Assembly (NCBI GenBank): GCA_029262415.1
Contig: JAJCZL010000001.1
Location: 1-53,367, forward strand
From: Deltaproteobacteria bacterium
GTDB taxonomy: Bacteria; Desulfobacterota; Binatia; UBA1149; JAJCZL01
Direction: 5' to 3'
DNA length: 53,367 nt
The position numbers and the translations under genes are program-made. Numbering within the stretch: the first letter of the stretch is position 1; each line of letters starts with the position of its first letter. The notes beneath the pieces were generated by a model that saw only the letters and a list, made by a program, of their open reading frames with translations, did not search any database and was not told the origin of the DNA. Below are positions 20,010-24,703 of this stretch, one piece after another.

Positions 20010-22985
20010 CTAGGGCGTGTTGCGAGTGAGGAAATCGAGCAGCGGTGCGTACACGTTGTTGTGCGCGGGATCATCCGGTGCCGTGAGTACGTCAATGTGC
20101 GCATAGCCCTCGCTCAGATGTGCCTCGAAGCCTCCGTCCGGCCCACCATACACAGTCTGGACGTTCAGGGGATTAACGATGCGCGGCGTGCCGTTGCAGG
20201 TCGGCGCCGTGCATGGTCCGATCGCTTCTGCGAAGGCTTTGAACGAGCCGGGTGTCGGTGCAAGACCGTTTGTACCGCCGAACGCGATGACGGGGATATC
20301 GATGCCGCCGGCCTCGGTCAGGTTCTCAATGTCCGCGCGTCCGCGTCCCACCGATAGCGGAGTCGTGTCCATGCCGCCGAGTTCGGCGGTAACGCCCAGC
20401 CCCGAGGATGCGAAGTACCAATCTCCGAAGTTTGAAGCTTCGGCACGAATCAAACTGAACATTGTTTCGATCGGCGTAACCTCGATTTCCACGCCGGTAA
20501 CGAGGTCGGGGATGAAGTAAGGGCCTCCATTGTCGGGCGTCGCCTGCGAAGGCATCGGATCGCTGACGCTGATCCATTCGCGCACGGGATCAAAGCCCGC
20601 TGCGCCCGCTACCAGGAAGTCGAATCCGGGGATCACCACGTTGTTGCCGTTGTTGGTAAAGCCCATCGACACACGGAAGGCCGGCTGCGGTGAAAAATCG
20701 TCGTCGAGGAAAAGGCCGAGAGCGGCTTCGGTCGTGGTCGGTGCGAGTGCCCCCAGCAGCCCGAGTCCCGACACCAGATCGACGGCGGCGCCGGAACCGA
20801 AGTCTTGCTGGACCAGCGTCTGGGAGTCGGGCGTCACGCGCCCCTGGATAGCGGTGATGTCGCCGGCCGCCTGAATCTGTGGGGTGACCGTGGAGAACGG
20901 TCCGACCGCGGCGCCCGTGTATGCCTCGACGGGCTCGACGCATTTGCTTGTCAGCGCCCCGGCGGTCGGTGCCACCGCGACGCAATCGGCATTGGTGACA
21001 CACGGGGTGCCGTCGACACAGCTGGGAGCGCCGGTAAGGACGGCGTTGTAGAGACCGCCGTCGGCGCGCGCAATGACCAAGTCGAGTTCGTCGTCAGTCG
21101 GTGTAGCCGTGGCCGCAGAGCCGAACAGCGCGCCGCCTTCCATCAAAACCAAACCGGCCACCTTGCTGTGACCCGCAACGACACCGGCGCCGGTATCAAA
21201 GTCGGTCGATGCGTAGCGCGCGGTGAAGGTCGTTCCCAACGAGTGACCGCCAAGGAACACTGTTGGTGCACCCGGCAACGCGGTGGCGGCGTCGACGACT
21301 GCGTCGATGTCGCGCGCGAATACATTCGGCGTAAAGTTGGCGACGAAGGCAACGTCCGGGCCTGCGTGAAATACTCCGCGTCGTGACAGGCGCGGATCGA
21401 GGCTGAGGCCGATTTCACTGCCGAAGAACCAATCGAGCCCCAGTAACGGATCCTGTTCGGTTTCCGCCAGGATGACTCCCTCGAGGTCTTCGAGTTGGTT
21501 GGTGCGACGATCGAAGGCCCAGACCTCCAAGGCGAGCCCCGCTTCGCCGGCCGCTTTCTCGACCATCACTTCGGCGAAGTACTTGAAAGACTGTGCGCCG
21601 GCGGCGAATCCGGGAATCATCACGAGCACCGCGTCGGGATCACCGGCACCGGGTGCGAAATAACGCGTGTAAGTAGCGTTGTTCAGATCAAAGATCGTCG
21701 TCCCAAATCGGGTCTCGAGCGTGCTGCCCGGAGCCACCGCGTTTGTCGGCGTGCCGTCGGGGGTGTCGGCCGGCGCAGCGCCGCTGGCAATCGTAACCGT
21801 TTCGGAATCGGTCGGCCCGATCACGCAATCGTTGGTGCAGGTGTCGAGCGGGTCGCGGTCGCCGTCATCACAGCTTTCGCCGTCTTCGACGATACGGTTG
21901 CCGCAAAAAGGAAGGCAGACCTCATCCTCACCGGCCAAGACACCCGCATCTGAGAACAACGCGCAGCTTCGTGGCTGAACCGAACCGATCTCGCGCAACA
22001 CGGAAACTTTCGAGCCTCCGGTCGCACATGTGCGGACATCTGCGGCGTTGGTTGCAGCGGGGCAGGTCTGCGCGAAACCGAGAGCTGATTGCAGATCGGC
22101 GAGTGCGACACCGCCGCAAGCCGCATCAATCGCCGTGTCGGTCTTGGCATCCTGGGCCGAGATCTTCGAGCTGAGCGCTGCACACTTCGCATCGGCTTTC
22201 GCGGCGCACGCAGCTGTGGTCGTCGCATCGGCCTCGCCACGTTCCTCTGCCACGGTGCAGGCGAAGAATCCGTCCGAGCAACCTAATAAACCCTTGGCCC
22301 GAGTTGCAGCTGACTTGGCGAGGTTCTTCGTTAGAGTTTTCTGGCAAACATTCAGCTCCTTGGCCGGTGCACCTGCGAGCGCGGGCGATGGTGCGCGGAC
22401 CTCTAAGCAGGGAAAAGTACCCGCTGGAAGAGCGGCCTGAACTCCAGCCTCGGTGAGGACTTCGTATGCGCGCGGAATAACCTGCTCGAGGATTTCGTCA
22501 CCGCGGCAAACTATCGCTGCCGTGATGCACGAGGCAAGAGCGTCTTCGCCGATGATCGACTCGGGCGGCGAGAAGGCTGCGCAAGACTGCTCGACGTCGC
22601 GGAATCCGAGGCCTGATACCCGCGCTCTGAACTGGGTCTGGCTTAAGGCCAGGCACTGCTTCTTGTTCGCAGCCTTGGTAATCTTGGCCGGAAGCTTATC
22701 GACAACCTTAGCTATCTTAGCGGTACATTTGAGGGTCGGCTTTGCGGCACAACCGGCGAAGCTCCCTCCGCCGGTTTCCTCGGCGATCTTACACTCGAGC
22801 AGGTCTCCGGCGCATGCGAGTTTCGACTTGAGCAGCGATTTAGCGAGTTTTTGCCCGCCCTTATTCAGGCCTTTTTGGCAAGCAGAGAAATCCTTCGCGA
22901 CCGCCGAATGTCCAACGGTGGGCAAAGACGCCAGTCCGAAAGCCGCCGCCACCGTAGCTAGGAGTAATACTCGATTGTGTTCCAT
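20010..22985 (-). CDS. Large secreted alpha/beta-hydrolase with cysteine-rich N-terminal modules
   Basis: 991 residues from ATG at 22983-22985, preceded by GGAGAG. A signal peptide (1-28) is followed by two related cysteine-rich modules, each opening with x-CQK-x3-K (C36 and C214) and containing an ECKIAEE or ACTVAEE segment. A Myxococcus-type cysteine-rich repeat (DUF4215 type) spans residues ~356-387: CGNRIVEDGESCDDGD. The C-terminal ~560 residues form an alpha/beta-hydrolase with nucleophile S582 in GGHSLGT and a likely catalytic histidine in the late EGYAHIDVL. The protein is exported and disulfide-rich, probably outer-surface or secreted. A lipase, esterase or depolymerase role is possible; the substrate is unknown. 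Confidence 0.82.
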   Translation of the reverse strand: MEHNRVLLLATVAAAFGLASLPTVGHSAVAKDFSACQKGLNKGGQKLAKSLLKSKLACAGDLLECKIAEETGGGSFAGCAAKPTLKCTAKIAKVVDKLPAKITKAANKKQCLALSQTQFRARVSGLGFRDVEQSCAAFSPPESIIGEDALASCITAAIVCRGDEILEQVIPRAYEVLTEAGVQAALPAGTFPCLEVRAPSPALAGAPAKELNVCQKTLTKNLAKSAATRAKGLLGCSDGFFACTVAEERGEADATTTAACAAKADAKCAALSSKISAQDAKTDTAIDAACGGVALADLQSALGFAQTCPAATNAADVRTCATGGSKVSVLREIGSVQPRSCALFSDAGVLAGEDEVCLPFCGNRIVEDGESCDDGDRDPLDTCTNDCVIGPTDSETVTIASGAAPADTPDGTPTNAVAPGSTLETRFGTTIFDLNNATYTRYFAPGAGDPDAVLVMIPGFAAGAQSFKYFAEVMVEKAAGEAGLALEVWAFDRRTNQLEDLEGVILAETEQDPLLGLDWFFGSEIGLSLDPRLSRRGVFHAGPDVAFVANFTPNVFARDIDAVVDAATALPGAPTVFLGGHSLGTTFTARYASTDFDTGAGVVAGHSKVAGLVLMEGGALFGSAATATPTDDELDLVIARADGGLYNAVLTGAPSCVDGTPCVTNADCVAVAPTAGALTSKCVEPVEAYTGAAVGPFSTVTPQIQAAGDITAIQGRVTPDSQTLVQQDFGSGAAVDLVSGLGLLGALAPTTTEAALGLFLDDDFSPQPAFRVSMGFTNNGNNVVIPGFDFLVAGAAGFDPVREWISVSDPMPSQATPDNGGPYFIPDLVTGVEIEVTPIETMFSLIRAEASNFGDWYFASSGLGVTAELGGMDTTPLSVGRGRADIENLTEAGGIDIPVIAFGGTNGLAPTPGSFKAFAEAIGPCTAPTCNGTPRIVNPLNVQTVYGGPDGGFEAHLSEGYAHIDVLTAPDDPAHNNVYAPLLDFLTRNTP

Positions 22986-23017
22986 TCGCTCTCCGTGCGG
23001 CAAGCGCCGCGGATCCC

Positions 23018-23227: not shown

Positions 23228-24703
23228 ATGCACTTTCGAACCAATACAGTAGCCCTAGTGCTCACCCTGTTGGGGGTAACTCCCTCGCCGGAGATCTACG
23301 CGCAAGCGCTTCCGAGTGGGGGGGATTTCAGCGTCAATGCCTACACCACGGGAGGCCAACAAAACCCTTCGGTCGCTCCCTTCGGGGCGGGCGGGTTCGT
23401 GGTCACCTGGGATTCGCAAGACGACGGCCAGACCGGTGCGGTTCAAGAAATTGCCGCCAGGGTATTCGAGCCCAGTGGTGCCGCGGTCGCTGAAGAGTTC
23501 ATTGTCAACGAGTTCACTGTCGGTAACCAGAGTTTTCCTTCGGTAGCCGGATCGGCAACTGCGGGGTTTGTGGTTGCGTGGCAAAGTTTCGGTCAGGACG
23601 GTCCGCCCGACTCTTCCGCGATTGTGGCACGTCGCTTCGATGCCACCGGAGCGCTGTTGGGTAGCGAATTTGTCGTGAACGGCTACACGACCGGCCGCCA
23701 GGCACGCGCGGTGGTTCGTATGGCCCCTTCCGGTGAGTTCGTTGTCGTTTGGATCAGCGGTAGCTCTGGGGGAACACAAGACGGAGACCGAGAAGGAGTG
23801 TTCGGCCGCAAATACGATGCTCAAGGCTTGCCCGTCGGTAGCGAGTTCCAGGCCAACCAGTTCACAACCGGTTCGCAGGCGACTGCCGGTGTCGCCATGA
23901 ATGAAGACGGCGCGTTCTTAGTGGCCTGGGAGAACGGGTTTCTCTCCGGGGGTGACGGCAGCGGTAGCGGAGTCTTCGCGCGCGCCTTTGGCACCAACGC
24001 CACACCAGCCGGAGACCAGTTCCGCGTGAACCTACTGACAGCCTCCGAGCAGCGCCGACCTTCTGTCGCGACGGCTGCGGACGGCAGCTTCCTGGTAACG
24101 TGGGAAAGCTTTGGGCAAGACGGCGACGGTGGTGGAATTGTTGCGCGCAAGTTCAGCGCCGCGGGAATGTCGGAAGGCACCGAGACTATTGTCAACGCGT
24201 TCACTACCGGCATGCAAGTCCTGCCGGTGGCATCGGCCTCCGGTCTCGGCGGCTTCACGGTTGTCTGGCAACAGGTTGATGACGGGCCGACCAGCGTACT
24301 GGTTGCACGCGATCTGGACGAAACGGGAACCCCGCAAGGTGGTGATTTCGCGGTCAGCTCGGGAACCGGCAACTACTTGTTCGGCCAATCGATCGCAGCG
24401 ACCCAGGCGGGGTTCGTGATCGCCTGGCAAGAGGACGGCCGTGACGGTGACCAAGGTTCGATCATTGCTCGTCGTTTCGGCGATGGCGCAACCAATGTCC
24501 TTTGCGGCGACGCGAACGACGATGGGTTCATCACCGCGAGCGATGCGCTGTTCGCGCTGCAGTCGGCCGTCGGCGCTCAGCAATGCGCGTTATGCGTGTG
24601 CGATGTTTCCGGAGACGGGTATGTCCGCGCGGGCGATGCGCTTGTGCTACTGCGTGTTAGCGTCGGCCAACAGATCGCCATGAACTGTCCGCCCTGCGTC
24701 TGA
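23228..24703 (+). CDS. Secreted seven-repeat (predicted beta-propeller) protein with C-terminal dockerin
   Basis: 491 residues from ATG at 23228, chosen because a signal peptide (1-25, ending IYAQA) follows; an in-frame upstream extension adds 18 residues before it. Seven repeats of about 55-65 residues follow, each with an (E/D)F-x-VN-x2-TTG-x-Q opening, a GGFVV-x-W strand and an I-x-AR-x-F ending. Seven such units suggest a seven-bladed propeller. The last 60 residues form a type I dockerin: two calcium loops, DANDDGFITASDAL and DVSGDGYVRAGDAL, each followed by a helix. Four further cysteines surround them. Dockerins usually bind cohesins; no cohesin gene is in the window. It is divergent from the hydrolase. 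Confidence 0.82.
   Translation: MHFRTNTVALVLTLLGVTPSPEIYAQALPSGGDFSVNAYTTGGQQNPSVAPFGAGGFVVTWDSQDDGQTGAVQEIAARVFEPSGAAVAEEFIVNEFTVGNQSFPSVAGSATAGFVVAWQSFGQDGPPDSSAIVARRFDATGALLGSEFVVNGYTTGRQARAVVRMAPSGEFVVVWISGSSGGTQDGDREGVFGRKYDAQGLPVGSEFQANQFTTGSQATAGVAMNEDGAFLVAWENGFLSGGDGSGSGVFARAFGTNATPAGDQFRVNLLTASEQRRPSVATAADGSFLVTWESFGQDGDGGGIVARKFSAAGMSEGTETIVNAFTTGMQVLPVASASGLGGFTVVWQQVDDGPTSVLVARDLDETGTPQGGDFAVSSGTGNYLFGQSIAATQAGFVIAWQEDGRDGDQGSIIARRFGDGATNVLCGDANDDGFITASDALFALQSAVGAQQCALCVCDVSGDGYVRAGDALVLLRVSVGQQIAMNCPPCV

Follow-up and report, generated by a model that had tools for sequence, protein, structure and literature searches.

A propeller protein with a cysteine-rich dockerin and a family of divergent cohesin-like domains suggest a non-cellulosomal display system in Binatia

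The window, i.e. the whole stretch of 53,367 nucleotides that was analysed, contains the gene of a secreted-looking propeller-dockerin protein of 491 residues (23228..24703, + strand), and it raises the question of which partner such a dockerin could have in a Binatia genome where Pfam recognises no cohesin. According to the ORF list, the frame is open up to the stop codon at 24701-24703, and it is shared with a stop-to-stop ORF of 537 residues. The program placed the start of this ORF at a TTG (23174), and an ATG at 23228 lies in the same frame. We favour the ATG over the TTG because a signal-peptide-like stretch comes directly after it. This N-terminal stretch (MHFRTNTVALVLTLLGVTPSPEIYA, 23228..23302, + strand) was recognised with a crude hydrophobicity rule, its cleavage site being our own reading, and it suggests that the protein is exported.

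With regard to the body of the protein, seven repeats of 54-59 residues are observed between 23321 and 24493 (+ strand), which start at 23321, 23483, 23654, 23831, 24005, 24170, and 24332. Twenty of the 21 repeat pairs align with z>5 over shuffles, and the weakest pair, repeats 3 and 7, has a z of 3.0, with 5 of 500 shuffles equally good. The single-sequence AlphaFold2 model of the protein, which is of low-to-middling confidence (mean pLDDT 63.7, pTM 0.72), exhibits 28 strands across the repeats, four in each. Foldseek returned 275 PDB chains at E<=0.001 for this model, with CylK, lyases, sialidase-like enzymes, and NHL domains in the top rows, all of which we take to be propellers. Repeats, model, and matches thus agree on seven four-stranded blades, within the limited confidence of the model. 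An earlier note on this DNA had read the repeats as a seven-bladed propeller and had suggested structure prediction as a check, and this reading is supported.

The best structural match of the modelled propeller is the C-terminal propeller of CylK (7roo), with a Z of 35.1 in VIA-align over 364 residues and an rmsd of 3.5; at an identity of just 11-12%, this is a likeness of predicted fold only. Five CylK entries lead the VIA-align list (Z 34.6-35.1), followed by an entry at Z 26.1. CylK is a Friedel-Crafts alkylating enzyme, and it fits the model far better than other propellers do (Z 35 vs 26). No match to CylK was found in the PDB sequence search with the window protein, which gave no match of weight for the propeller and listed six dockerin rows and three UMP synthase rows. 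The latter (E 0.47-0.85) were taken as chance. Relatives of the protein were not found in a scan of viral contigs. In Pfam and NCBIfam scans, a sub-threshold Dockerin_1 match was the sole match, with no catalytic family recognised, and it is for this reason that we consider ligand or surface binding the most likely role of the propeller. Binding of sugars or proteins is common among propellers. Nine of the 13 proteins with at least three repeats of this type carry a dockerin in the stretches fetched from the same genome, which were picked from matches to the window protein, so this figure is not a census.

The C-terminal module of 66 residues (24503..24700, + strand) is, on its profile and sequence matches, a dockerin. 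Its two intact calcium loops, recognised in the sequence and in the alignment, are DANDDGFITASD (24509..24544, + strand) and DVSGDGYVRAGD (24602..24637, + strand). Both fit DxNxDGxIxxxD, the calcium loop pattern of type I dockerins (PF00404). These dockerins have an internal twofold likeness, and the two halves of the module align to each other better than 2000 of 2000 shuffles. The window protein alone scores 20.0 bits against Dockerin_1 (PF00404), below the curated cut-off of 22.9; in the genome search, the module scores 21.8 alone and 30 together with its neighbours in the frame, and it exceeds the cut-off only when these neighbours are counted in. Among structurally known dockerins, 6kg9_A is matched by the single window protein (E 0.0028) and 1ohz_B by a profile of 34 modules of the same genome (A3, E 6.9e-6). 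In the AlphaFold2 model, the dockerin part has a pLDDT of about 30. The module contains six cysteines, at module positions 1, 28, 31, 33, 62, and 65, and the description in the earlier note of a dockerin with two clean calcium loops and extra cysteines therefore stands.

The six cysteines, numbered C1 to C6, are not equally conserved. We compared 101 unique full-length modules taken from the fetched loci. C1 and C5 occur in 99% of them, C4 in 92%, C2 in 73% (at fixed spacing, which undercounts it where the spacing shifts), C6 in 43%, and C3 in 40%. C3 and C6 co-vary: both are present in 39 modules, both are absent from 57, and only 5 are discordant (Fisher 3e-22, a value inflated by kinship among the sequences, which the other cysteine pairs share). 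When only modules with room for C6 are counted, the figures are 38, 43, and 5. The next-best pair is C2 with C4 (p 1e-5), which a shift in spacing can explain, and no other pair comes near. The co-variation of C3 and C6 therefore predicts an optional disulfide between them.

The same module is widespread in the genome and in its order. The window protein has 86 matches in its own genome, many of them to the dockerin alone, and profile A3 finds 59 Cys-rich dockerins there, so the search for further dockerin proteins advised in the earlier note was productive. In each of the other 12 members of the order, 12-107 matches were found, the counts being lower bounds in G002, G003, G009, and G010, where only 107 candidates each were scored. 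We collected 54 carrier ORFs from the own genome, which is an undercount, as a 55th (L097) was left out of the scans; four of the 54 (L098, L099, L103, and L121) are partial and run past the end of the fetched stretch. By the crude rule, 43 of the 54 carriers have a signal-peptide-like start, one of these calls (L098) being visibly false, vs none of four window genes taken as cytoplasmic. Dockerin_1 is matched by 15 of the 54 at E<=0.001. At the same threshold, Pfam assigns to the carriers families such as subtilase, reprolysin, multicopper oxidase, glucose/sorbosone dehydrogenase, ethylbenzene dehydrogenase, cytochrome c, FG-GAP, BNR, PD40, and DUF4215. The two complete Pfam lists of the 54 carriers, four of which are partial, contain no family of glycoside hydrolases (22 and 14 families, E<=0.001).

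The position of the dockerin varies between carriers. It lies within 14 residues of the C-terminus in 31 of the 54, near the N-terminus in 15 (four of these partial), in many cases directly after the signal-peptide-like stretch, and in the middle of the protein in eight, six of which have a cohesin-like domain directly after it. The 31 C-terminal modules, which follow different bodies, would suit a sorting tag recognised by an export or anchoring machine rather than a docking plug. We give this explanation little credence in view of the 15 N-terminal and eight internal modules, of the match between the module profile and structurally known dockerins, and of the co-occurrence of the module with a family of cohesin fold, described below.

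A second dockerin subtype was also observed, which starts with CGQP, CGRP, or CAQP and exhibits a degenerate first calcium loop. In the own genome it is present in L099, L100, L102, L107, L115, L118, L119, L121, and L122, i.e. in nine of the 15 N-terminal modules. The dockerins of the gene cluster described below are of the CGQP type in G000 (the own genome), G005, and G012, and that of G006 starts with CGDP. This subtype may correspond to a second specificity. At another locus of the own genome (L085, G000:C1), an open frame of Cys/Asp-rich tandem repeats (CxxDSSG) lies upstream of the signal-peptide-like start of a dockerin gene and is perhaps not translated.

With regard to the partner, PF00963 (Cohesin) has no match in the own genome, which is 96.8% complete, either at E<=0.001 or at E<=0.1. 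Among 58 relatives, 14 genomes have a match at E<=0.1 and 10 a match above the cut-off, none of these 10 belonging to the order; the order members G004 and G006 have sub-threshold matches, and the other 12 order members all lack a match above the cut-off. In several carriers, a domain of about 120 residues lies directly after the dockerin. With a profile of this domain (A2), 18 copies were found in the own genome and 3-33 per genome in the rest of the order. Pfam (11 and 10 members scanned) and NCBIfam (10 members scanned) yielded only isolated matches of single members, none of them better than E 0.026. No PDB sequence was matched by profile A2 at E<=10, and a cohesin-like alignment (A4) gave no relatives in the scan of viral contigs.

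We modelled one such domain, from a relative (L188), with AlphaFold2 and an alignment of 10 rows from L188-L190. The model, which is of high confidence (pLDDT 95.5, pTM 0.88), exhibits nine strands, as in the cohesin fold. No PDB entry was matched at E<=0.001 in Foldseek (best 0.011), and the first 27 rows, from E 0.011 upwards, are cohesin or cohesin-dockerin entries. In VIA-align, which was run on Foldseek's own match list, the best entry is 2xdh (Z 10.9, rmsd 2.1, 101 aligned residues), and the 34 entries listed at Z>=8 are all cohesins. Cohesins occupy 46 of the first 47 rows, the exception being 6to1 (Z 7.6); 3kcp, 4fl4, and 2o4e are presumably cohesin entries too and are counted as such, though their titles do not name cohesin. 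In a profile-profile comparison, 61 cohesin-like domains match eight Pfam-positive cohesins of other Binatia with a probability of 71% and a score of 32.1, vs at most 13.3 for 60 column shuffles and 14.0 and 14.8 for two reversed controls. Against the same cohesins, A2 reaches 57% and another cohesin-like alignment (A5) only 24.6%. The domain is accordingly called a divergent cohesin by its predicted fold, outside PF00963 as that model stands.

It could be objected that the domain is another beta-sandwich, e.g. a carbohydrate-binding module, and that the true cohesins are unrecognised elsewhere or lie in the unassembled part of the genome, as the Foldseek E-values are weak, Pfam does not call the domain a cohesin, and the assembly is 96.8% complete. 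Nevertheless, every listed entry at Z>=8 is a cohesin, whereas a chitin-binding domain in the same list reaches only Z 6.2, and a loss in assembly would have to be reconciled with the other 12 order members, which also have no Pfam cohesin above the cut-off. We judge this explanation improbable. The earlier note had held that the lack of a cohesin in the genome, together with a fold other than a propeller, would speak against its proposal. In terms of PF00963 there is indeed none, yet 18 copies of a family with predicted cohesin fold are present, and this half of the test would mislead because the family escapes PF00963. Dockerins without recognised cohesins are reportedly a known puzzle, associated with Peer and colleagues (2009). 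In the own genome, the partner seems to exist but to have gone unrecognised, and it may be worth looking for the partners of other 'orphan' dockerins in the same way, by gene neighbourhood and fold.

In other Binatia families (G018, G030, G037, G044, and others; L068-L075), Pfam cohesins and Dockerin_1 matches are both present. In one contig (G018:C2), several Pfam cohesins lie close together.

The dockerin and the cohesin-like domain tend to be found in the same genomes. Across 148 Binatia genomes, 18 have both, two have the cohesin-like domain only (G030 and G104), two have the dockerin only (G107 and G017), and 126 have neither (Fisher p 6e-19, and 1e-6 outside the order, for genomes which are not independent). 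The cut-offs for these counts (E<=1e-5 and E<=1e-10) were chosen once the first order-wide profile counts were known, and at most 30 and 41 candidates were scored per genome. At looser cut-offs, a cohesin-like match appears in G017 and a dockerin match in G030. G043, G044, G050, and G056 have weak dockerin matches and no cohesin-like domain, but they do have Pfam cohesins. The two search profiles derive from the own genome, and their reach falls with distance. As the signal also comes mostly from two lineages (the order and family f9), the co-occurrence is weaker than its p-value; the joint distribution partly reflects phylogeny and how far these profiles extend. Within the 13 genomes of the order, the copy numbers of the two modules are correlated (rho 0.93, and 0.87 with genome size removed). 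Against a pairing of the two stands their unequal number, with about three dockerins to one cohesin-like domain.

The two modules are also linked by gene neighbourhood. In 10 of the 13 order genomes (G000, G001, G003, G005, G006, G007, G009, G010, G011, and G012), a cohesin-like gene and a dockerin gene are neighbours on one strand, as part of a similar cluster. The search for clusters covered stretches picked around strong cohesin-like matches, and those taken from G002, G004, and G008 did not show this cluster; in G002, other adjoining or fused cohesin-like and dockerin genes are present (L211 and L218). The cluster of the own genome (L191, G000:C75:4500-13500) and that of G001 (L214), a member of the same family, exhibit the order cohesin-like, dockerin protein, cohesin-like, double cohesin-like, cohesin-like, and the remaining eight clusters start with a gene for two cohesin-like domains. 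In eight other genomes, the cluster's dockerin protein shares 37-46% identity with that of the own genome (blastp, two matches of partial length, G001 excluded). A lipobox-like pattern is present in the first gene of all 10 clusters, in eight by regular expression and in two (G000 and G001) by eye, these two being atypical, with a Tyr at -3. As the regular expression also fired on three dockerin ORFs, the pattern is a weak sign, and the product of the first gene is an apparent lipoprotein only.

Some proteins contain both modules. One ORF of the own genome (G000:C25, L128) has three cohesin-like domains and one dockerin, and the ORF with the most cohesin-like domains, in G012 (L133), has four and one dockerin. 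If these domains are cohesins, both proteins have the several cohesins of a cellulosomal scaffold. A third explanation, in which the module only shields exported proteins as a cap held together by calcium and disulfides and needs no partner, would suit its up to six cysteines, the co-variation of C3 and C6, and its terminal position in many carriers, but it leaves unexplained both these two-module proteins and the clusters that 10 of the 13 order genomes share with genes of cohesin fold, and it has, in our view, a slim chance of being right.

The explanation that we consider probable is a non-cellulosomal cohesin-dockerin display, in which the window propeller would plug, by a disulfide-stapled dockerin, into the divergent cohesins of its own cell. 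The protein would be exported and fold as a seven-bladed propeller, and its C-terminal dockerin, loaded with calcium and stapled by disulfides, would plug into these cohesin domains. Some of the cohesins would be carried by the apparent lipoproteins, which would anchor them in a membrane, and the proteins holding both a cohesin and a dockerin could act as adaptors or scaffolds that extend or branch the array. The same dockerin plug would be used by more than 50 other exported proteins. What was computed is the identity of the module, the copy numbers, the predicted cohesin fold, the co-occurrence, the gene neighbourhood, and the cysteine co-variation; from these we infer dockerin-cohesin binding, disulfides, lipidation, and a surface location. 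Of the cohesin-based surface complex that the earlier note had proposed, the complex is thus supported indirectly, by fold, co-occurrence, and clusters, and its location at the surface is suggested by lipobox-like patterns only. A broader proposal, to which we give an even chance, is that a separate class of cohesin-dockerin pair exists in this Binatia order and in family f9, with cohesins invisible to the libraries, dockerins with two near-constant disulfides and an optional one, lipoprotein anchors in a conserved cluster, and about sixty propellers, proteases, and oxidoreductases displayed on the cell in a function other than the degradation of polysaccharides.

The proposed system resembles the clostridial type I/II cellulosome in its cohesin-fold domains, some of them in tandem, in the two-calcium-loop dockerins on many exported proteins, and in its two-module proteins, which are similar to adaptor scaffoldins. 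In contrast to the cellulosome, where dockerins are on plant polysaccharide hydrolases, no glycoside hydrolase family was found at E<=0.001 on the 54 carriers scanned (four partial), and the Binatia have apparent lipoprotein anchors, dockerins with about four to six cysteines, and cohesins outside PF00963. The amylosome (PMC9112005) and the mucinolysome (PMC12997984) are reported as starch and mucin systems found in gut anaerobes. They likewise use cohesin-dockerin assembly for a purpose other than cellulose, whereas no polysaccharide-degrading family was found on the Binatia carriers.

The earlier note had called such dockerins unusual outside the Firmicutes, which is too strong, as non-cellulosomal or cellulosome-like sets have been reported in ANME archaea (PMC9012536) and in Cloacimonadota (PMC8542988). 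The non-cellulosomal sets of the ANME archaea similarly comprise dockerin and scaffold-like proteins that are not involved in the use of cellulose, and the non-cellulosomal cohesin of Archaeoglobus (2xdh) has the solved fold nearest to the Binatia cohesin-like domain. These archaea belong to another lineage, and the ANME domains were reportedly found with standard libraries, whereas the Binatia cohesin-like domain was not; in addition, the Binatia have a shared cluster led by an apparent lipoprotein. For Candidatus Stygibacter (Cloacimonadota, PMC8542988), a cellulosome-like complex is reported with a scaffoldin of 3755 residues containing cohesins and CBMs, and with GH18 and GH57 enzymes. This uncultured non-Firmicute also exhibits dockerins on a serine peptidase (S8/S53) among its exported proteins. 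In contrast, the Binatia have smaller cohesin-like proteins, and no GH family was found.

A term search in the main text of the genome paper on Binatota (PMC8262859) found neither 'dockerin' nor 'cohesin', and among the literature matches listed, no title or abstract start named a cohesin or a dockerin of Binatota. As far as seen, the new features are the divergent family of cohesins, the stapled dockerin, the shared cluster with its leading gene for an apparent lipoprotein, and clients on which no glycoside hydrolase was found. If the proposed display is true, the cohesin-dockerin principle would be a general protein-display system in an uncultured phylum, which is known for methylotrophy (PMC8262859), and a dockerin with built-in disulfide staples would be on offer.

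The earlier note had also suggested that a divergent secreted hydrolase encoded nearby takes part in the complex. This suggestion is not upheld, as neither a dockerin nor a cohesin-like domain was found in the neighbouring hydrolase in the scan of the window. This hydrolase-like secreted protein (20010-23003, - strand) exhibits sub-threshold matches to Abhydrolase_1 and DUF4215, and its N-terminal part consists of Cys-rich, helical-looking repeats. In a protein of another genome (L075, G023), Cys-rich repeats that look similar by eye are followed by a Pfam cohesin and a dockerin-like end.
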